From a virus: a DNA stretch of 25,380 bases. Location: IMG/VR virus record IMGVR_UViG_3300049440_000202, positions 1 through 25,380 of that record. The stretch is one strand, 5' to 3'. The notes beneath the pieces were generated by a model, which was not told where the DNA came from, did not search any database, and saw nothing but the letters and a program-made list of their open reading frames with translations. This document shows, one piece after another, positions 11,235 to 25,301 of this stretch. Positions within the stretch are counted from its first letter, which is position 1, and the number at the start of each line of letters is the position of its first letter. A program made the translations under genes and the position numbers.

Positions 11235-14015
11235 TCAGAGGTTGAGGGCGGCCCGGAAGAGTCGCGGGTTCGCGCTCAGGACTTGATGCAGCGCACGCAC
11301 GCCGCCGCGCGTTTGCAAGTGTTTGATGACCAGCCCCTCCTCGAGGCCGATCGTCGCGTCGATGCCGCCCGAGACGTCTGTGGTTCCACCGCCGCCCGTC
11401 ACGAGCCCGCCGGAGGCAAATGCGGGCAATCCGCTTCGGGACGGCGAGCGGAGCGTCGGCATCCGAGCGCCCGCATTGAGCGCGGACAAGAAGCCGACGC
11501 CGAGGTGTTTCACCGCGTCGGCGCGCACGACGAATTCGCCGTGCGACAGCCGGGCGAGGATCGAATCTGACGTTCCCGTTCCTGGCCCTCGAACGGGACC
11601 ACCCTCGGCGAGGCCGAAGATGCCGAATGTCGTGAACGCGGTCGCGATACTGTTGGCGTTCGCCGCCGCCGCCGCCGCCGCGAGTGCCGCTGCGGAGGCG
11701 CCCAATGTAACCGCCGCGCCAGCCACAACGTCGCCGGCCGCCGAAAGTTCATTCGACGATGCAGCGATGGCGTCCGCGCCGACAATGACCGTCGCGCCGG
11801 CCGTCTTGAGCGCCGTCGCGGCGACGACCTGCGGCGTGGAATCGAAGAGACCGGAAATGCCCTCGACCAGCTTCGTCGAAAGGATTTCGGCAATGGCTTT
11901 CTGAATCGACTGCACGGCGGAGAGCAGGGCTTCCCGAGCCACGTTCGCCAGCGTCGGAAGCGTCTTTTTCGTGGCGTCGATCTCGATGCCGAGATTCGCG
12001 ACCTCTTGGCGCAGCTCGTCGACCCGCTGCTGCGACTGGACCGTCTGCGGACCGGCGAGCAGCTGATTCATCTCGTCCTTCGTGCTCGCGAGGACGTTTT
12101 GCAGCGCCGCGAGTCCGGACGTCTGACTGGTGAAGAGACTATCGATGCCAGTCGTGAGGAAATCGCTGATCGTGTTTTGGGCGATGTCTTTGACGGTCGC
12201 GCCCAGTTCTTTCAGCAGCTTGTCGGATTTGTCCACATCGACGCCGATCCCAGCGAAAGACGCAGCAAACTGCTGGGCCGCCTGGATCAACGCCGGATCC
12301 TTTGTTTGCTGCGCGAAGAACAGCATCTGGTCGGCGAGCTTCGTCAGCGTCGGCAATCGATCGGCTTCGAGGGCGTGGATCTGCGTCTCGGCCGCGTCCT
12401 GCGTGATCAGCCCTTGATTCGCCTGGGTAGTGATCTGATCCCGCTGAATCCCGAGCTCGGCCAACGCCCGCTGCCCCTGCCGCTGCTTCTCGTCGAAGGC
12501 GGCGCGACTAGTGAGCAGGTTCGAGAAGGCCGCGGTCTGGCTGTTGATGAAGTCATCCGACAGCCCTTTGATTCCCTGCAACGTCAGCTTATAGGCTTCG
12601 GCCTGTTTCGCGATTTCGATCTGCGCGGCGCCGATTTCGTCGCCCGTGCCTTTTGCGATCGTAGCAGCGAAACCCGCGACGTTATCGGCGAGTGCCTTGA
12701 CCTGCACACGTTCCTGCTCAAGCAGCCCGTTGACCTCGGTCTGCCCATTGACCTTCGTCAGCGCGATCTTCGCTTCGATGTCGGCGATGTCTTGCGCGCG
12801 CTTGATCCGCGCCGCATCGGTGTTCTCGTCGAGCGGCGATGCCACGATCGCCGCTCGCTCTTTTTGCAATTCGGCGACCTGCAAGGCGACGCCGCTTCGC
12901 GTGATGCTGATCTTCGAGGCGAAGAAGTCCTCAAGGGACCTCTTACCCTGCGCGAACGACGCTGCCTCGATCTGTTCCTGTCGCTTGAGACCGGCCGCTG
13001 TCGCTTCCTGCTCGTCCTTCGCCTGCTGACGAACGGCGGCGAGGCGCGCATCGGTCAGCGCCTTGAAGACGGCCGGGTCGACGAATGGAACGTCGGGCTT
13101 GACCTTGCCTGGCGTTGCCGACGCGGGGAGAGCCGACGGAGCGGTGCCGGCTTGCGGAACGCCGCCGCCCGTGACAAGCGAGCCGAAGAGCTTGAACGCT
13201 TCGCGGTCGGCTACGGCGAGCGACGTCGAAAAATCGATGAGCTTGGAGATGACGCCGAGGACGGGCGCCATCGCGTTGACGAAGCCCTTCGCCGACCCCG
13301 TGAGTTTCTTGAGCGAATCGTCGAATTGATCGGCTGCTGCCGCGGTCTTGCCAGAGATGACCAGGCCGAGGCGCTCCGCTTCGGCGCGCGCCGGAGCGAA
13401 TCCGGTCTGCGCGAGCTCCTGGAGAAACGGGATCATCGCCACGCCATTCCGCCCGAAGAGCTGCATCATGACGGCGGCCTTCCCGGCGCCGTCCGAGAAG
13501 TTTGCCTGGGCGTTCGCGATCTTGACGAGCACCTCATCGAGCGAGAGCCCCTTAAAATCCGAAGCTCGCAGACCGAGGGAGGCGAACGCGGTCGTCGCCT
13601 TGACCGATCCGGCTTCGGCCTCCGCGACCGATCGAGAGAGGAACTTGAGGCCGTTCGTCATCTCCTCGACGTTGACGTCGGCCTGCTTCGCGACGAAGCC
13701 GAGTACGCTCAACGCTTCCGTCGAGACGCCCGTCTTGAGCGAGAGTTTCCCGAGTTCGTCGGCAGCGTGAATCGTATCGCCGACGAACCGAATCAACTGG
13801 AATGCGCCAAAGGCCGCAGCGAGGCGGCCGATCGTCGCGACGAGCCCGTCGAAGGCTCCTCGTGCTACGCCCGCGGCATCGCCGAGTTGCTTCGTGCCTG
13901 TGGCCGCCGTGCGATTCTGCGTGTCGAGTTGCTTGACCGCGGACGAGAGGCGACGAACGATCTCCGTCGCTTGGTCGTCTGCCGTTAGCGTCACTCGGAC
14001 TGCAGACGTGCCCAT
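11235..14015 (-). CDS. Tape measure protein
   Basis: At 926 residues this is the longest protein in the window, and it sits where a tape measure belongs, directly after the tail chaperone (TAATG overlap with the frameshifted product). The N-terminal 50 residues (VTLTADDQATEIVRRLSSAV) and the hydrophobic stretch at about 60-80 are typical. Long alpha-helical, Gln/Ala/Lys-rich segments follow, with hydrophobic patches. Near the C-terminus, an Ala-rich segment (about 770-790) precedes FGLAEGGPVRGPGTG and the common end motif ARLSHGEFVVRADAV (about 822-836), seen in many siphophage tape measures. It sets tail length and is ejected with the DNA. If the usual relation of about 1.5 angstrom per residue applies, the tail is of moderate length. 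Confidence 0.92.
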   Translation of the reverse strand: MGTSAVRVTLTADDQATEIVRRLSSAVKQLDTQNRTAATGTKQLGDAAGVARGAFDGLVATIGRLAAAFGAFQLIRFVGDTIHAADELGKLSLKTGVSTEALSVLGFVAKQADVNVEEMTNGLKFLSRSVAEAEAGSVKATTAFASLGLRASDFKGLSLDEVLVKIANAQANFSDGAGKAAVMMQLFGRNGVAMIPFLQELAQTGFAPARAEAERLGLVISGKTAAAADQFDDSLKKLTGSAKGFVNAMAPVLGVISKLIDFSTSLAVADREAFKLFGSLVTGGGVPQAGTAPSALPASATPGKVKPDVPFVDPAVFKALTDARLAAVRQQAKDEQEATAAGLKRQEQIEAASFAQGKRSLEDFFASKISITRSGVALQVAELQKERAAIVASPLDENTDAARIKRAQDIADIEAKIALTKVNGQTEVNGLLEQERVQVKALADNVAGFAATIAKGTGDEIGAAQIEIAKQAEAYKLTLQGIKGLSDDFINSQTAAFSNLLTSRAAFDEKQRQGQRALAELGIQRDQITTQANQGLITQDAAETQIHALEADRLPTLTKLADQMLFFAQQTKDPALIQAAQQFAASFAGIGVDVDKSDKLLKELGATVKDIAQNTISDFLTTGIDSLFTSQTSGLAALQNVLASTKDEMNQLLAGPQTVQSQQRVDELRQEVANLGIEIDATKKTLPTLANVAREALLSAVQSIQKAIAEILSTKLVEGISGLFDSTPQVVAATALKTAGATVIVGADAIAASSNELSAAGDVVAGAAVTLGASAAALAAAAAAANANSIATAFTTFGIFGLAEGGPVRGPGTGTSDSILARLSHGEFVVRADAVKHLGVGFLSALNAGARMPTLRSPSRSGLPAFASGGLVTGGGGTTDVSGGIDATIGLEEGLVIKHLQTRGGVRALHQVLSANPRLFRAALNL

Positions 14016-14688
14016 TACGGCTCTCTCAGCAAGGCGGGAATCTCCGGCGGGTCAGGGGCGCGCTTCGCGTGCGGCGCGAGGAGCGCCCACACGGTCAACT
14101 CGTCGCTGTAGTGTTCTCCTGCCACCCGTTTCAGTTTGAGCCGGTACGCGTGCAGGAGATCCGCGAGCGGCCATTCGAGGAGTTCGTCTACGCGGGTGGC
14201 GTCGCCATCGACGATCCAGCGGGCGCAGTCGGCCCAGCTGCCGCGCGTTTGCCGGTCGAGCGCCGCGCGGGCTTGTGCCCGTTGGCTGAGTTGTCGGGGG
14301 CGTCCGTTCTCGAAGCAATCGGAGAAGGCGTCAAGGACCGGCCCCCGCTGAGAAAAAAAGCCGCCAACACCCCTTCAAAGACCGACCCGAGGACGCGCTT
14401 CTCCTCGGCATCGGTCAGATCGGCGAAGAATTCCGCGTTCTTGACCGCCGCGTCGGGCGTCCACTTCGTATCGACTTCGACGAGTAGCCCGGCGATGATC
14501 GCGTGGTACTTGCCGGATCGAATGGCCTCGACGATGAGGCGGCGTAACCCCGTTTCATCGACCCCCGCCGTCAGCAGCGCCAAGACGCCCGCGTCCTCGA
14601 GTTGCACCATGACCCAGCCGTCTTGCCGGCTGGTCGTCTGCTCGGCGGGGGCGAAGATCCGCCCGCCGAGCGGGTAAACCTGACCCAT
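14015..14688 (-). CDS. Tail assembly chaperone, -1 frameshift product (gpG-T-like)
   Basis: The short chaperone and this longer product share 112 residues. At the T7 run (0-frame GCT TTT TTT CTC) a -1 slip leads into a frame that stays open for 112 more codons and stops at TAA overlapping the tape-measure ATG (TAATG). The extension begins SQRGPVLDAFSDCFENGRPR and contains DELLEWPLADLLHAYRLKLK and DELTVWALLAPHAKR, which looks like a normal folded T-like domain, unlike the arginine-rich 0-frame tail. In lambda, gpG and gpGT are made by the same device and coat the tape measure during tube assembly. The 224-residue length is close to gpGT (279). The frame is too hidden for routine annotation. 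Confidence 0.85.
14188..14688 (-). CDS. Tail assembly chaperone, unshifted product (gpG-like)
   Basis: A 166-residue protein following the tube protein after a 6-base gap, with no strong Shine-Dalgarno. The shared N-terminal domain (1-112) has an acidic helical pattern (LTAGVDETGLRRLIVEAIRS, then AEFFADLTDAEEKRVLGSVF) typical of tail chaperones. After the slippery site at residues 110-112 (AFF) the 0-frame continues for 54 residues of low-complexity Ala/Pro/Ser/Arg sequence, as expected when the opposite frame is the selected one. The protein is not normally in the finished virion. It keeps the tape measure in solution with the longer frameshifted form. Confidence 0.85.
   Translation of the reverse strand: MGQVYPLGGRIFAPAEQTTSRQDGWVMVQLEDAGVLALLTAGVDETGLRRLIVEAIRSGKYHAIIAGLLVEVDTKWTPDAAVKNAEFFADLTDAEEKRVLGSVFEGVLAAFFLSGGRSLTPSPIASRTDAPDNSANGHKPARRSTGKRAAAGPTAPAGSSMATPPA
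14353..14359 (-). promoter_or_regulatory. Programmed -1 ribosomal frameshift site, T TTT TTT
   Basis: Seven consecutive T in the coding strand, phased as T-TTT-TTT against the 0-frame, so both the P-site and A-site tRNAs can re-pair after a one-base slip. It occurs in a GC-rich gene where such a run is rare. The gene order (between tube protein and tape measure) is the classical place for this mechanism. A GC-rich stretch follows that could form structure, but no convincing pseudoknot is evident by eye. Confidence 0.85.
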
Positions 14689-20026: not shown

Positions 20027-21667
20027 CTATCCCTCGGCCAGCTTGAGATGCGCGCCCGGCTGTTTGCCCGGCGGCGCGGTCGGCGTTGACTCGGGGTTCG
20101 TATCAGGACGCGTCGTCTCCGCGTCGCTCGGCTGATCGGTGACGTTCTGATCGGCGAGTGTCGCATTGCCGCGGGTGACGAGCACCGGGCGAAGATCGAG
20201 CGCGAGCGGGACCTTGTACTTCTCGGCGAGCTTGATCTCTTCTTGGCGGGTCTGGAAAATCTCTTCGATGTCGCGGCCTTGCTCCGCGGCGATCGCAGTG
20301 AGCGTGTTGACGCCAAAGGCAACCTCCTTTCCTTTCGACGTCAGATCCTTCTCCGGATCGATCCAGGGGAACGACCGCGGATGCCAGGTCACTTCTTGGT
20401 ACCGTGTCGCGTCGAAGGAATCGAGCCGCAACGCACCAGAGAGCAGCGCGTTCTTGAGCCAACGGCGATAAATCGGCTGTTCCACCTTCGTGATGAAGCG
20501 CTGCTGCAAATACTGGTAGACTGCCCGCTCGGCGAGCATGCCGATGCGCCCGGAGCCGAACGAGGTGTCCGAGAGATCGGACGAGAGCGAGAGGTACGAG
20601 ACACGGACCCCCGAGGCGATCGAACGGAGAATCGTCTTGTCGAAGGCGGAGAAGGCTGTCGTCGGGTGCTGCGGGTCCCAACTCTTGAATTCCCAGCCCT
20701 CCGGGATCTGCTCAATGACGCCCGGATCGGCGTCCCATTTGAGATAGGGCTGCTTCAGGTTGCCGGAGTCGTCGAGCTCGAGCGCGCCGTCGCCCGCTTC
20801 TGGGCTCTTCTGCTCGAGGAACCCCTGCTTCGCCGCCGCGGTGCGAGCGGCGATCAGTTCCGCCTCGCGGTAGTAGCCAAGGTTGTTGAGGTCGACGATG
20901 ACCGGCGCGAACCACGTGACACCGCGCGTCTGCCGCGGCCGACGCTGAACGAATAGGTGGATGATCTGATCGGCCGGGACACGCTCGCGCTTCCATTGGC
21001 CTTCGCCCTGATGCCGCACAAGCAAGTGGTACGCGACGCGACGGCCCCACGGATCCATCTCGACGCCCATCCGGATCTCGTTCTGTCCCGGACCCGGAAA
21101 GACATTGTAATTCCAGTCGAGTTGATCCGGATCGATGAGCTCCGTCGAGAATCCGAAGTCGTTCGGGAACCCCTCGAGGAGCCGGATGATCACCTCGCCG
21201 TCCGTGCACTCGCTTTCCGCGATGAGCGTTTCCGTCTCAGTCCAGCAACGCAAGCCGTCCGCGCTGGCCGTCTCCGCCTCACACCATTCGTACCAGGCGT
21301 CTTCGATCTTGGCGTTGTTCGTCGCGTGGAAGTCGCCGCGCGAATTCTTCACGCGCGCCTGCATCTGGATGCCGTCCTTCCCGATGATGTTCTCGGAAAA
21401 GAGCGCCGGCACGCGGGCGGCGGTTGCGTTATTGATCACGAGCTCGCGCGCGCGAGCGCGCAGCGTGACCCCATCCGGGCGGAGGACCTGATCCGCCGAG
21501 AGCAACGAGGGCATGCGGAAATCGCCCATGAGTCGGCCGCCGGCGGCGCCGTTGTAATTCGCCGGGAAGTTCGCGCGCATGCCCGTGCGGCCGGAGACGG
21601 CTGGCCGTTTTCGCTCGAGGCCAAGCACGCCGAGCATCCGATCAGAGAGCGATTTACGCGCGGGCAT
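20027..21667 (-). CDS. Portal protein, lambda gpB family
   Basis: A 546-residue protein if started at the ATG (MPARKSLSDRML) that overlaps the gpW-like gene by 14 bases. A GTG at 21703, with GAGAAG upstream, would add 12 residues. Landmarks of lambda-type portals are visible: LRARARELVINNATAARVPA near the start, ECTDGEVIIRLL, TELIDPDQLDWNYN, PADQIIHLFVQRRPRQTRGV with the following TWFAPVI, AAAKQGFLEQKSPEAGDG, and SLSSDLSDTSFGSGRIGMLA then PIYRRWLKNALLSG. Twelve subunits form the ring through which the terminase packages DNA. The C-terminal 60 residues are a flexible Pro/Thr/Asp-rich tail. Placement after the terminase and before the protease-capsid gene matches lambda. Confidence 0.92.
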   Translation of the reverse strand: MPARKSLSDRMLGVLGLERKRPAVSGRTGMRANFPANYNGAAGGRLMGDFRMPSLLSADQVLRPDGVTLRARARELVINNATAARVPALFSENIIGKDGIQMQARVKNSRGDFHATNNAKIEDAWYEWCEAETASADGLRCWTETETLIAESECTDGEVIIRLLEGFPNDFGFSTELIDPDQLDWNYNVFPGPGQNEIRMGVEMDPWGRRVAYHLLVRHQGEGQWKRERVPADQIIHLFVQRRPRQTRGVTWFAPVIVDLNNLGYYREAELIAARTAAAKQGFLEQKSPEAGDGALELDDSGNLKQPYLKWDADPGVIEQIPEGWEFKSWDPQHPTTAFSAFDKTILRSIASGVRVSYLSLSSDLSDTSFGSGRIGMLAERAVYQYLQQRFITKVEQPIYRRWLKNALLSGALRLDSFDATRYQEVTWHPRSFPWIDPEKDLTSKGKEVAFGVNTLTAIAAEQGRDIEEIFQTRQEEIKLAEKYKVPLALDLRPVLVTRGNATLADQNVTDQPSDAETTRPDTNPESTPTAPPGKQPGAHLKLAEG

Positions 21668-22211
21668 GGCCGAAGGCGATGCGAATCGCGGGGTTCTGGC
21701 CACCGTGCTTCTCGCGGCGAACGCGCGACTTGTAGATGTCGTACCACTTCTGCAACTCGAGCTTCTTCATGCGCACGAGTTGCCGGCCGTGGATCTGGTA
21801 GGACTCGACGTCTGATAGCGTTCCGCTGCCATAGAGCAGCGTCCAGAGCGCGGAGAGCATCTTCTCGTTGTCACTCTGCAGTGCCCCCGCCGTCGCGGTG
21901 GCGGCGTCCGGAATGATCTCGAGCGAGGGGAGCGAATGCGTCCAGCGTTGGCCGCCGTTCGTGTAGTGCCGCTCGAAGCGATACGTGCCAGCGATGAGCG
22001 CCGCGGTCGCGGTCGCGGGGATGGCGACGGTCCAGAGCCGGCCGTCATTCGTGACCCAGTTCGGATCCCACGTCGGGGCCGAGGCGCCGCGGATCGAATA
22101 GGACAGGGCCCAGCCGTCGGCGATGGGAAACGCCCCGTTTTCGTGCGTCCAGGTCCAGGTATCACCGGCGACAACGTCCGCCGGTTCGCAGGTCGGGATC
22201 TGGGGAGCTAT
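21654..22211 (-). CDS. gpW-like head-tail joining protein with a non-standard start codon
   Basis: The frame is open from a TGA near 22360 down to 21654 but contains no ATG, GTG or TTG before a Met 68 codons from the end, while protein-like sequence clearly extends upstream. Best start: ATA at 22211, forming ATAG with the stop of the preceding gene, an exact counterpart of the ATGA overlaps elsewhere in this operon (185 aa); a CTG at 22223 is the alternative. The N-terminal half (APQIPTCEPADVVAGDTWTW) is a beta domain. The C-terminal 60 residues (SYQIHGRQLVRMKKLELQKW and IYKSRVRREK) are gpW-like. Proteins with this two-part layout precede the portal in many phages. A sequencing error or a true ATG-to-ATA change is possible. 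Confidence 0.75.
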   Translation of the reverse strand: MAPQIPTCEPADVVAGDTWTWTHENGAFPIADGWALSYSIRGASAPTWDPNWVTNDGRLWTVAIPATATAALIAGTYRFERHYTNGGQRWTHSLPSLEIIPDAATATAGALQSDNEKMLSALWTLLYGSGTLSDVESYQIHGRQLVRMKKLELQKWYDIYKSRVRREKHGGQNPAIRIAFGHARA

Positions 22212-22555
22212 CGGAGTTTCCAGCGCGTCGGGGCGCGGCGAAGGAACGGCCCGGTGGTGCCGCGGGCCGCTTGCACGAACGAGAGTTGGCGTGAGAGGAC
22301 GGTAATGCGAAAGGCACGAGCGCCCGCCGTGCGCGCACGCGCGGCCATTGGCGTATCAGGCGTATATGGCGAAACAGTTTCGCCCGAATCCTTGGCGATG
22401 GGATGCTCGTCGACGGTCGGGCCGCCAATGAAAAAGCCCGCCTCGGAGTGACCGGCGGGCTGTGGATGATCGTCGCTGAACGGATTCGTCAGCCAGTAGC
22501 GCTCGTCGTCCCGGGTGTAGGGCGACATCGTCGCGCTGACTTGCACTTCGCGCAT
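22208..22555 (-). CDS. Hypothetical protein, 115 aa, in the packaging block
   Basis: A 115-residue frame after a 60-nt gap. The start ATG at 22555 has an in-frame stop just upstream and no good Shine-Dalgarno. A second Met (MSPYTRDDERYW, residue 10) is an alternative. The N-terminal half is acidic and aromatic (TRDDERYWLTNPFSDDHPQP). The C-terminal 45 residues are strongly basic (RAFRITVLSRQLSFVQAARG then RRAPTRWKLR), so the C-terminus might bind nucleic acid or the acidic face of another virion protein. I recognise no family. It couples to the gpW-like gene at its stop codon. A scaffold or a minor connector component is possible, but nothing in the sequence proves it. Confidence 0.55.
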   Translation of the reverse strand: MREVQVSATMSPYTRDDERYWLTNPFSDDHPQPAGHSEAGFFIGGPTVDEHPIAKDSGETVSPYTPDTPMAARARTAGARAFRITVLSRQLSFVQAARGTTGPFLRRAPTRWKLR

Positions 22556-22615
22556 GCTACGAAAATCGTGTCAAGCCCCCTGCACGGTAATGCGCTTTTG
22601 ACTACGCCAATGTGG

Positions 22616-22867
22616 CTAGGCCGCCGAATCCTCGGATTGCGCGCCGGTCTCGTCGAAGCCGAGTTCGAGGAGATCTTCGGCGTAGCGCAGCACACGCCAC
22701 GACGACGGGCCGGACCCTGGCAGGTGCTGGCCGACGTCCTCGATGTGCTTCCGGACGGTGCGAATTGAGATGTGGAGGATTCCGGCGATGCCCGCATAAT
22801 CGAGTTCGTCGCGCCAGAACAACGCGATGACGCGAAACTGCGCCGGCGTGAGTCGGCGAAGTGTCAT
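22616..22867 (-). CDS. Small LuxR-type helix-turn-helix protein
   Basis: An 83-residue protein whose ATG overlaps the terminase TGA (ATGA). Residues about 4-50 show the LuxR/GerE (or sigma-70 region 4-like) HTH pattern: LRRLTPAQFRVIALFWRDEL, then DYAGIAGILHISIRTVRKHI with recognition-helix spacing as in LuxR C-terminal domains (LT-x-Q-x-x-V...IA-x-x-L-x-IS-x-x-TV-x-x-H). There is no receiver or ligand domain. The C-terminal third is an acidic tail (YAEDLLELGFDETGAQSED). It probably binds DNA as a dimer, and it may regulate late transcription or act in packaging, since terminase neighbours sometimes include HTH proteins that recognise the pac or cos site. The position inside the packaging operon is unusual for a transcription regulator. 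Confidence 0.75.
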   Translation of the reverse strand: MTLRRLTPAQFRVIALFWRDELDYAGIAGILHISIRTVRKHIEDVGQHLPGSGPSSWRVLRYAEDLLELGFDETGAQSEDSAA

Positions 22868-24795
22868 CGGATTTTCCAGGAGCCGCCGGCGCGCGCCGAG
22901 CGGACGAAGGAGGGCCGGCGCGGAGATGCCGGATGATGCGGCGCTTGCGCCGTTTGCTGCTCGAGATCCGCACGCATGTCATCGGTTGCCGATTCTTCAT
23001 GCGTTTTCGCTGCGGCGAGTTGCGCGGCGCGCGCGGTTGCCATCGCTCCGAGCTGCGAAAGGAGCCGCGGGCCGAGCGCGTGAAGCGCCGCCGTGGCATA
23101 GACGACCAGATCGAGGGCCTCATTCCGCCGGCCGGCGATCGGTCGCCAGACTTTCGTCGGCCGTCCCTTCACAAGAATGGTCCGCAATTCTTCGGCGGTG
23201 AGCTGGTCAAAGAAGACCTCGTCCAGCGTGTCGGCAAAATGGACCGAGCCCTCGCGCCCCGGTGCTCGGGGGAGCCGAAGCGCGAGCAGATCCTTCACGG
23301 AATCCACGCCGACGAGCCACGGCGGACGTTCAGCTTTCCGACGAGCGCGGCCAGGACGGCGGATGATCGGTCGCCCTCGGCCATCCTCGCCTTTCACGCC
23401 GATGACTTTCACGCCGGCGCCGTTCCACCTGTCCACGTACTTCCACGCGGTCGATGTGAGAAAGCCCGTATCGATCGCCACCGACCGGAGCGGGGCCCCG
23501 AATGGTTTCGTGAGCGCTGCCCACGCCTCGAGCCAAGGCGCGTCCGATGCGGTCGGGTCGCCGTCGTGCTGCTGCCAATCGAAGACGTACGATTCTTCGC
23601 CGGCCGCCCATCCGATCGTCAGCGTCTCCACACGGTTCGCCTGCACGTCGATCGCGCCGGTGACTAGCGCCACCGCCGTTGGCGCATCGGGCAACGGCTC
23701 GACGCGGGCCATCAGCGTATGCACGTCGATGCGCTCGCCGACAGGCTTCCATGGCTCGGCGAGCACGTGCGTCACGAAGACCTTAAGGCGTTCGTGATTC
23801 CCCTGCGCATCTCGCCACTTTCGGATGATGTCGCCCCACGAGAGCCAGGGAGACATCAGCGCGTTACCGAGATCGAATCCAACTGTCTCGCGCTCCGGCC
23901 GTTCCGCGATCCACCGGCCGCCGCGGTTCATCTTCGCTTTCTCGGCTTCCGGAATCAGCACGCCGCAGCTCATGCAGAGGTAGCGAGCCGTCTCCGGAAT
24001 CATCTGGCCTGCGGCGTCGCGGTCGCAGACGATGCGATACGTACCGTCGCTGGCCTTCCACTGGAACGGTTCGATGAAGCCGCACGCGGGACAGGTGACA
24101 TGGAACCGCCGAAGGTCCGAATCGGCCAGCGCCGCGGTGATCGGGCAGGTGCCTTCCTCGCCCGGCGTCGACCCCTGGATTCGCTTCGCGTTCCAGAAGG
24201 TCGTCGTCCGTTCGACGGCCAAGTCCCACGGATCGCCCTGTGCTCGCGCGTCCAACGTCCAGCCCGATCGTTCGTCGCCGAGCACGCGGCGGGCGGGCCG
24301 CGACCTGAGCCCCGATGCCGAGTTCGCCCCCACGACGGCGAGCCATCCACCAGGAAACACTTTCCGGAGCATCGTGTCGTCCGACGTCCGGCGTCCGCCC
24401 TCTGAGCGGACGATGTTCTTGAGCGCGGACGATTCGGCCAGCATGGGGTCAATGCGTTCTTTCGTCCACGACTTGGCCCGTTCGAGGTCCGGCTGAATGA
24501 CGATCACGCCGGACGGATCGGCCTTCATGCACGAGGCGATGAACTGATTGATCGCCTCTGTGAAGCCGACCTGCGCGGGCTTCTTGAATACGACGTCACG
24601 GTGTGTTTCGTCGCCCATGATGTCGAGGATCTCGCGCATATAGGGCACGCGATCGGTGGAATACGCGCCAGGCTCCGAGGCACCGGACGACCTGGCGATC
24701 CATCCGTAGCGATCGGCCCACTGGCTCAGAGAGAGCCTTGGCGGGGCGGCGAAGCCACGTCGGACGGCGCCGGCTGTGCGCTGGGCGAGGTTCAC
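22864..24795 (-). CDS. Terminase large subunit, lambda GpA family
   Basis: Starts at GTG overlapping the small-subunit stop (GTGA), giving 643 residues. The longer frame to 24939 is an Arg/Asp-rich antisense-like stretch. The ATPase half has a deviant Walker A (KKPAQVGFTEA, 71-81) with the lysine ahead of the loop, as in lambda GpA, and a Walker B-like RRVLGDE (169-175). A four-cysteine zinc-finger pattern follows (CPACG at 235 and CMSCG at 274). The nuclease half has the acidic triad candidates Asp383 (GAIDVQ), Asp442 (AIDTG) and Asp562 (NEALDLVVY). The enzyme cuts concatemeric DNA and pumps it into the prohead through the portal. The C-terminal 60 residues are a variable, basic, portal-binding-like tail. 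Confidence 0.93.
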   Translation of the reverse strand: MNLAQRTAGAVRRGFAAPPRLSLSQWADRYGWIARSSGASEPGAYSTDRVPYMREILDIMGDETHRDVVFKKPAQVGFTEAINQFIASCMKADPSGVIVIQPDLERAKSWTKERIDPMLAESSALKNIVRSEGGRRTSDDTMLRKVFPGGWLAVVGANSASGLRSRPARRVLGDERSGWTLDARAQGDPWDLAVERTTTFWNAKRIQGSTPGEEGTCPITAALADSDLRRFHVTCPACGFIEPFQWKASDGTYRIVCDRDAAGQMIPETARYLCMSCGVLIPEAEKAKMNRGGRWIAERPERETVGFDLGNALMSPWLSWGDIIRKWRDAQGNHERLKVFVTHVLAEPWKPVGERIDVHTLMARVEPLPDAPTAVALVTGAIDVQANRVETLTIGWAAGEESYVFDWQQHDGDPTASDAPWLEAWAALTKPFGAPLRSVAIDTGFLTSTAWKYVDRWNGAGVKVIGVKGEDGRGRPIIRRPGRARRKAERPPWLVGVDSVKDLLALRLPRAPGREGSVHFADTLDEVFFDQLTAEELRTILVKGRPTKVWRPIAGRRNEALDLVVYATAALHALGPRLLSQLGAMATARAAQLAAAKTHEESATDDMRADLEQQTAQAPHHPASPRRPSFVRSARAGGSWKIR

Positions 24796-25301
24796 GCCGC
24801 GGCCCCTTCGCTCGTCGCTTCGTCCGCTTCGATCTCGTCCGCCCCGTCGCTCAATGCGGTCAGAACATCCGACGCCAGCGCGTCGAGCGTCGACGTCGCT
24901 TGCGCCATCGTCTCGAGCCCAATCACTCGCGGCGCCCAACGCCCGCGAACCGCGAGGAGGCGCGACCGGATCATCGAGACGACTCGCTCGACCTGCCGCT
25001 CGGCTTCCTCGGCCGGTACGAGCTCGCCCCGCCGCTCTCGTACCTTGAGTTCCGCCAGATCCGCGTCCGCAGCGAGCTTCCGAGCTCGCTCTTTCGACTC
25101 ATCCGGTGACGCACCTTCCCGGTTCTCGCGCTTGTCCTTCTCTCGTCGCCACTGAACGCAACCGGCGATCTCAAACCGCGGATGGCCCGAGATCTTGCGT
25201 TGCGGCATGCCTTGCTGACGCCAAAGGCCGATCGTGTCCGTGTCCACATCGAACAGGGCCGCGATTTCGCCAAGGCTGACCGTCTCAATCTTCGGTGCCA
25301 T
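24792..25301 (-). CDS. Terminase small subunit, Nu1-like
   Basis: A 169-residue protein starting at ATG (MAPKIETVSLGEIA); the GTG one codon before is less likely. The N-terminal 50 residues form a MerR/Nu1-like winged helix-turn-helix (SLGEIAALFDVDTDTIGLWR, then GHPRFEIAGCVQW) that binds the packaging site. The middle (AADADLAELKVRERRGELVP, then EEAERQVERVVSMIRSRLLA) is the Nu1-family helical oligomerisation region. The C-terminal 40 residues are acidic and should contact the large subunit. There is no clear Shine-Dalgarno. A TGA overlaps the ATG (TGATG), so coupling to an upstream gene beyond the window edge is possible. It forms a GTGA overlap with the large subunit. Confidence 0.85.
   Translation of the reverse strand: MAPKIETVSLGEIAALFDVDTDTIGLWRQQGMPQRKISGHPRFEIAGCVQWRREKDKRENREGASPDESKERARKLAADADLAELKVRERRGELVPAEEAERQVERVVSMIRSRLLAVRGRWAPRVIGLETMAQATSTLDALASDVLTALSDGADEIEADEATSEGAAA

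Follow-up and report, generated by a model that had tools for sequence, protein, structure and literature searches.

The window analysed here is the whole of a 25,380-base IMG/VR record with a GC content of 64.6%. Its minus strand carries a siphophage-type head and tail operon that includes a large terminase gene (terL) of the GpA type, a small HTH-like ORF, an ORF of 115 aa, a head-tail adaptor gene and a lambda-type portal gene, followed by genes for a protease and major head protein, head closure, tail terminator, tail tube, tape measure and tail fibres (Table 1). The HTH-like ORF (LTPAQFRVIALFWRDELDYAGIAGILHISIRTVRKHIEDV), which lies between the terminase and the head genes, gave no match in a PHROG search. 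Before the tape measure gene, two frames overlap (14015-14374 and 14188-14688, minus strand), the second without a start of its own; this pair is the usual -1 frameshift of tail-assembly chaperones, and its slippery TTTTTTT at about 14353-14359 is kept in contigs G001 and G002. The right end of the window (25380, minus strand) and base 1 of a related contig, L002, are the identical base (GGTCACGCGCGAC...; 22 mismatches in 700), and two assemblies that end alike suggest that a physical end of the genome (cos) lies close to the gene for the small terminase.

Table 1. Features of the adaptor locus in the window (positions are those of the 25,380-base record).
Feature	Position	Strand	Evidence or remark
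Head-tail adaptor (joining) gene, 185 codons + TAA, read from ATA	21654..22211	-	PHROG 5774, homologues, dN/dS
Proposed ATA start codon	22209..22211	-	Same column: ATA in L002 (3117) and L054 (3435), ATG in L091, GTG in L095
TAG stop of the upstream ORF	22208..22210	-	ATAG with ATA, 4-nt overlap, geometry as ATGA
GGAAA, weak Shine-Dalgarno-like stretch 5 nt ahead of ATA	22217..22221	-	Anti-SD duplex energy
Rival start CTG, four codons 5' of ATA	22221..22223	-	Kept in L002 and L054
Ig-like (attachment) domain, residues 12-100	21912..22178	-	AlphaFold2 model, 8gtd_M match
gpW-like helix-hairpin-helix (tube) domain, residues 114-168	21708..21872	-	AlphaFold2: helix 114-127, strands 137-146, helix 150-168
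68-aa ORF from the first standard start, expected gene-caller output	21654..21860	-	First standard start at other codons in L002 and L054
115-aa ORF upstream, putatively coupled, without a family match	22208..22555	-	Kept in L002 (62%); N-terminal half also in L009
Portal gene, overlaps the end of the adaptor gene	20027..21667	-	Phage_portal_2, E 2e-85
Small HTH-like ORF after the terminase	22616..22867	-	ATGA junction; counterparts in L002, L054 and L151
Large terminase gene, GpA type	22864..24798	-	GpA_ATPase and GpA_nuclease matches

The first-pass annotation had described the gene before the portal as a gpW-like joining gene encoding a two-domain protein of about 185 residues. Judged from its sequence and predicted fold, its product is a 185-residue head-tail adaptor composed of an Ig-like and a helix-hairpin-helix domain, and the two-domain description thus stands. 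The PHROG 5774 'head-tail joining' profile covers residues 9-170 (E 6e-22), and the gene lies directly upstream of the portal gene, as expected of PHROG 5774 or R4C-type adaptors. An AlphaFold2 model built from a 52-member alignment (mean pLDDT 90) consists of an all-beta domain at residues 12-100 and a helix-hairpin-helix at 114-168. The likeness to gpW proved to be partial. It is limited to the fold of the C-terminal domain, and lambda gpW is a single small domain. A Pfam search of the adaptor protein gave no match at E values up to 1, gpW was absent among the families matched by the 52 homologues, and Pfam gpW membership was rejected on both counts. The most fitting assignment for the protein is to the R4C-type adaptors (PHROG 5774), and 'gpW-like' describes the fold of its C-terminal part.

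By family profile, the only clear solved relative is the head-to-tail joining protein 8gtd_M (E 3e-38), and a Foldseek comparison of the model with this chain returned an E value of 3e-11 and TM scores of 0.67-0.69. This protein, vBDshSR4C_004 of roseophage R4C (PDB 8gtd chain M), has the same two-domain build in 178 aa as against the 185 aa found here; the two are 27% identical by fold alignment, and the gene in the window has ATA as its proposed start. The R4C adaptor is present in 12 copies per virion as a dodecameric ring that docks on the portal; its Ig-like attachment domain spans residues 1-106 and is followed by a tube domain (PMC10276861). By homology, the adaptor of the window would likewise form a 12-subunit ring under the portal. 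Other known phages carry related genes at the same place. The homologues in Vibrio VP882 (gp05), Halomonas phiHAP-1, Achromobacter Mano and Acinetobacter Alexa are 27-34% identical and also sit between terL and the portal gene, those of VP882 and Alexa with a 4-nt overlap like the one in the window. In contrast to the window, all four follow terL directly, without the HTH-like and 115-aa ORFs, and have standard starts. A homologue in Alux-21 also lies between terL and portal, and all five of these genes start with ATG or GTG. A search of prophages for a relative found none with the adaptor and only remote portal matches; an Rfam search gave no match.

What sets the gene apart is its beginning. 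The earlier claim that no standard start precedes the recognisable N-terminal sequence holds, since ATG, GTG and TTG are all absent from the adaptor frame between the upstream in-frame TGA at 22358 and the ATG at 21860, which is codon 118 (Met118). The standard starts therefore allow only the 68-aa fragment that gene callers had been predicted to report. The ATA, TAG and CTG triplets lie where the first-pass annotation had placed them (Table 1), and the ATAG overlap that it described recurs in two relatives. ATAG stands at the same alignment column in the window, in L002 (79% identical) and in L054 (63%), and neither relative has a standard start. The junctions read ...CTGGAAACTCCG|ATA|GCTCCC in the window, ...CTGGAAGGTCGT|ATA|GCTCCC in L002 and ...CTGGAGGGCCGC|ATA|GCTCCC in L054. 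Read from ATA, the predicted N-terminus is (Met-)APQIPTCEPADVVAGDTW... In L054 an in-frame TGA (3408) nine codons 5' of ATA leaves only CTG or ATA as near-cognate starts. The first standard start differs among the relatives (codon 35 in L002, codon 36 in L054), and none is conserved.

L002 and L054 come from different metagenomes; a further contig, L003, is near-identical to L002 and begins past the ATA, so that it is uninformative here. The ATA was found in three contigs only, namely the window, L002 and L054. A DNA pattern scan with TGGANNNNCNNATAGCTCCC returned 48 matches, among which the adaptor gene was present only in the L002 and L054 contigs. Synonymous divergence (dS) in the N-terminal part is 1.0-1.6 among these three phages. 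ATA is a rare codon in them: of 218 Ile codons in a set of nine long window genes, where 8.6% of codons have A as the third base, just one is ATA, and in the counted genes of all three phages the figure is 3 of 297. An ordinary internal ATA at this position in all three phages is thus unlikely, though the TAG overlap constrains part of the ATA.

The first-pass annotation had proposed an alignment with proteins encoded just before the portal. In almost all of about 75 distinct homologous loci, a standard start (ATG, GTG or TTG) lies no more than a few codons from the ATA position. Two of them, L091 (ATG) and L095 (GTG), start exactly at the ATA column, where the same 'AP' follows, and the VP882, Mano, phiHAP-1 and Alexa proteins begin within a few residues of it. 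None of the homologues checked starts at the Met of the 68-aa fragment. In a tree of the family the three ATA members form one clade (support 100/99), which indicates that ATA was probably gained once.

Selection on the two frames also changes near this point. After the ATA, dN/dS in the adaptor frame is 0.21-0.25 in the N-terminal part and 0.16-0.24 in the C-terminal part, values that denote purifying selection. Over the 24 codons before the ATA (window versus L002), dN/dS is 2.15 in the adaptor frame and 0.40 in the frame of the upstream ORF. Selection thus shifts from one frame to the other near the ATA, and this leads to the conclusion that the protein begins at or very near that codon.

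At a probability of roughly three in four, we infer that translation of the adaptor starts at AUA (22211-22209) and is coupled to the upstream ORF. This is the option that the first-pass annotation had preferred, and it gains support from the recurrence of ATA in two diverged phages and from Shine-Dalgarno-like pairing ahead of it. The predicted duplex energy with the anti-Shine-Dalgarno sequence before ATA is -3.3 kcal/mol in the window, -6.1 in L002 and -9.8 in L054, and the stretches involved are a weak GGAAA, a moderate GGAAGG and a strong GGAGG, respectively. Furthermore, the terL/HTH junction of the window (CTGGAAAATCCGATGA), which uses ATGA, has the same layout as the adaptor junction (CTGGAAACTCCGATAG), so the ATAG looks like a standard junction in which A stands in place of G.

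A start at CTG (22223), which the earlier annotation had offered as an alternative, appears unlikely. It would lie four codons upstream, give a 16-nt overlap with the upstream gene and make the ATA an Ile codon at position 5. The window, L002 and L054 all have this in-frame CTG at the same position, and CUG is a near-cognate start in bacteria. However, the CTG is forced by a Trp codon of the upstream gene (c-TGG), and it is preceded by a Shine-Dalgarno sequence in none of the three phages (duplex energies of 0.4, -1.7 and 0.5 kcal/mol in the window, L002 and L054); the GGAGG of L054 stands downstream of the CTG, between it and the ATA. With ATA at about 1% of Ile codons (3/297), three ordinary ATA codons across these lineages would be odd. 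Finally, the closest start-bearing homologues align to the ATA rather than to the CTG.

Less probable still is a product limited to the C-terminal gpW-like domain of 68 aa, made from the ATG at 21860. This ATG is a standard start, and a product of one small domain would correspond to lambda gpW. Against this, the N-terminal domain is itself under purifying selection (dN/dS 0.21-0.25), it is present in 8gtd_M and in full-length annotated homologues of known phages, and the relatives have different first standard starts.

Very improbable too is a -1 frameshift fusion of the adaptor with the upstream 115-aa ORF. The overlap of the two frames has the right sense for a -1 shift, and the same phages use the conserved slippery TTTTTTT in their tail-chaperone ORF pair. 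Yet a scan that did find the TTTTTTT control detected no X_XXY_YYZ heptamer within the final 120 nt of the upstream ORF of the window, L002 or L054. The last sense codons of the upstream ORF also vary (CGA, GTA and GCA), and the adaptors of VP882, phiHAP-1, Mano, Alexa and Alux-21 are encoded separately, each by an ORF that has a start codon of its own. Just as improbable is a sequencing or assembly error, or the recent mutation of an ancestral ATG that broke the gene, the last of the options raised at first: the record is metagenomic and all homologues checked but one have ATG, GTG or TTG near the ATA position, but the same ATAG in two contigs from other metagenomes, at a dS of about 1 or more and with a dN/dS of 0.16-0.25 for the gene, makes a shared error or a recent loss implausible.

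Under initiation at AUA, ribosomes terminating at the UAG of the 115-aa ORF would be held at the overlapping AUAG, the Shine-Dalgarno-like stretch 5 nt before AUA would assist re-initiation, and re-initiation would take place at AUA with the initiator fMet-tRNA. Weak decoding of AUA would then keep adaptor output low and tied to the upstream gene, and a low, coupled yield could suit a protein of which each virion needs about 12 copies. In R4C the 12-copy adaptor compares with about 415 subunits of the major capsid protein (PMC10276861). The portal, also present in 12 copies in R4C, has an ordinary ATG in the window, and dosage control through the AUA is accordingly offered here as a hypothesis.

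Natural AUA starts and coupled overlaps are each documented. In Staphylococcus aureus, AUA starts of ccpN and citZ give 10-30% of the output of AUG, and the ccpN AUA is conserved to Bacillus subtilis (PMC13009471). The adaptor resembles S. aureus infC, ccpN and citZ in its proposed AUA start. In contrast, the S. aureus genes have strong, extended Shine-Dalgarno sequences and some of them are regulatory, whereas the adaptor is a phage morphogenesis gene in a stop-start overlap whose Shine-Dalgarno sequence ranges from weak to strong by phage. In Escherichia coli, a figure cited in PMC12864459 puts AUA at up to about 1% of AUG. Excess IF3 lowers re-initiation, less so with a Shine-Dalgarno sequence (PMC2268962). 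Given the low E. coli yield and the effect of IF3, the adaptor might be made in insufficient amounts in a host that does not tolerate AUA. Gene pairs with overlapping stop and start codons (ATGA, TGATG) occur in bacteria and archaea, where termination-reinitiation couples them (PMC6728339). The adaptor junction has the same 4-nt overlap geometry and differs in reading ATAG rather than ATGA; the terms ATAG, GTGA and TTGA are absent from the text of that paper. In the open-access papers searched, a partial coverage of the literature, we found no phage structural gene with an AUA start. Each of the two features has been described separately; none of the searched papers reports them together in a gene for a phage structural protein.

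ATA does not appear to serve as a general start in this phage. When all conserved frames of four contigs were compared, no other gene was clearly without a standard start except the frameshifted tail-chaperone frame, and a general use of ATA was rejected. The other conserved frames with no standard start nearby were that second chaperone frame and alternative frames inside conserved genes such as terL. An ORF after terL in L054 (2486-2809, IAPALSADEW...) also overlaps the preceding stop as ATAG; it was set aside as a second case because a GTG, itself a plausible start, lies four codons upstream after a GA-rich stretch, and because the ORF has no homologues in phage or plasmid records. A distant adaptor homologue in L119 (2369-2920) has an in-frame TGA six codons upstream and no ATG, GTG or TTG. 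Its likeliest start is ATC, with GGAG 8 nt before it, although this is one contig and an indel could explain the observation.

We put somewhat less than even weight on a broader proposal, in which a phage lineage has fixed AUA within an AUAG overlap so that a weak start coupled to termination sets adaptor output. Under this proposal, near-cognate starts control dosage across the structural operons of phages, and no current gene caller sees them. If this is true, L119, with its possible ATC start, would count as an independent example. Programs restricted to ATG, GTG and TTG cut the adaptor differently in each relative (ORFs of 68, 151 and 155 aa), and conserved near-cognate phage starts would be systematically missed by them. 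IF3 normally rejects a codon such as AUA, and the conserved AUAG junction is also a simple natural setting in which to test whether ribosomes can re-initiate there after termination.

Two further elements lie in or beside the upstream ORF. A terminator-like hairpin (GCCCGCC...GGCGGGC followed by TTTTT) is located at 22430-22461 on the minus strand, inside the 115-aa ORF, and is also found in L002 and L009. The region encodes the peptide '(S/T/N)-(E/A)-A-G-F-F', and the hairpin is possibly a transcription terminator or attenuator within coding sequence. Additionally, TTGACACGATTTTCGTAGC (22556-22574, minus strand) directly precedes the ATG of the 115-aa ORF. No sigma-70 -10 element was found. 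The stretch is identical in L002 although the flanks differ, the exact string TTGACACGATTTTCGTAGC+ATG occurs among IMG/VR contigs only in L002, and L151 and L009 have TTGACAC at a similar place.
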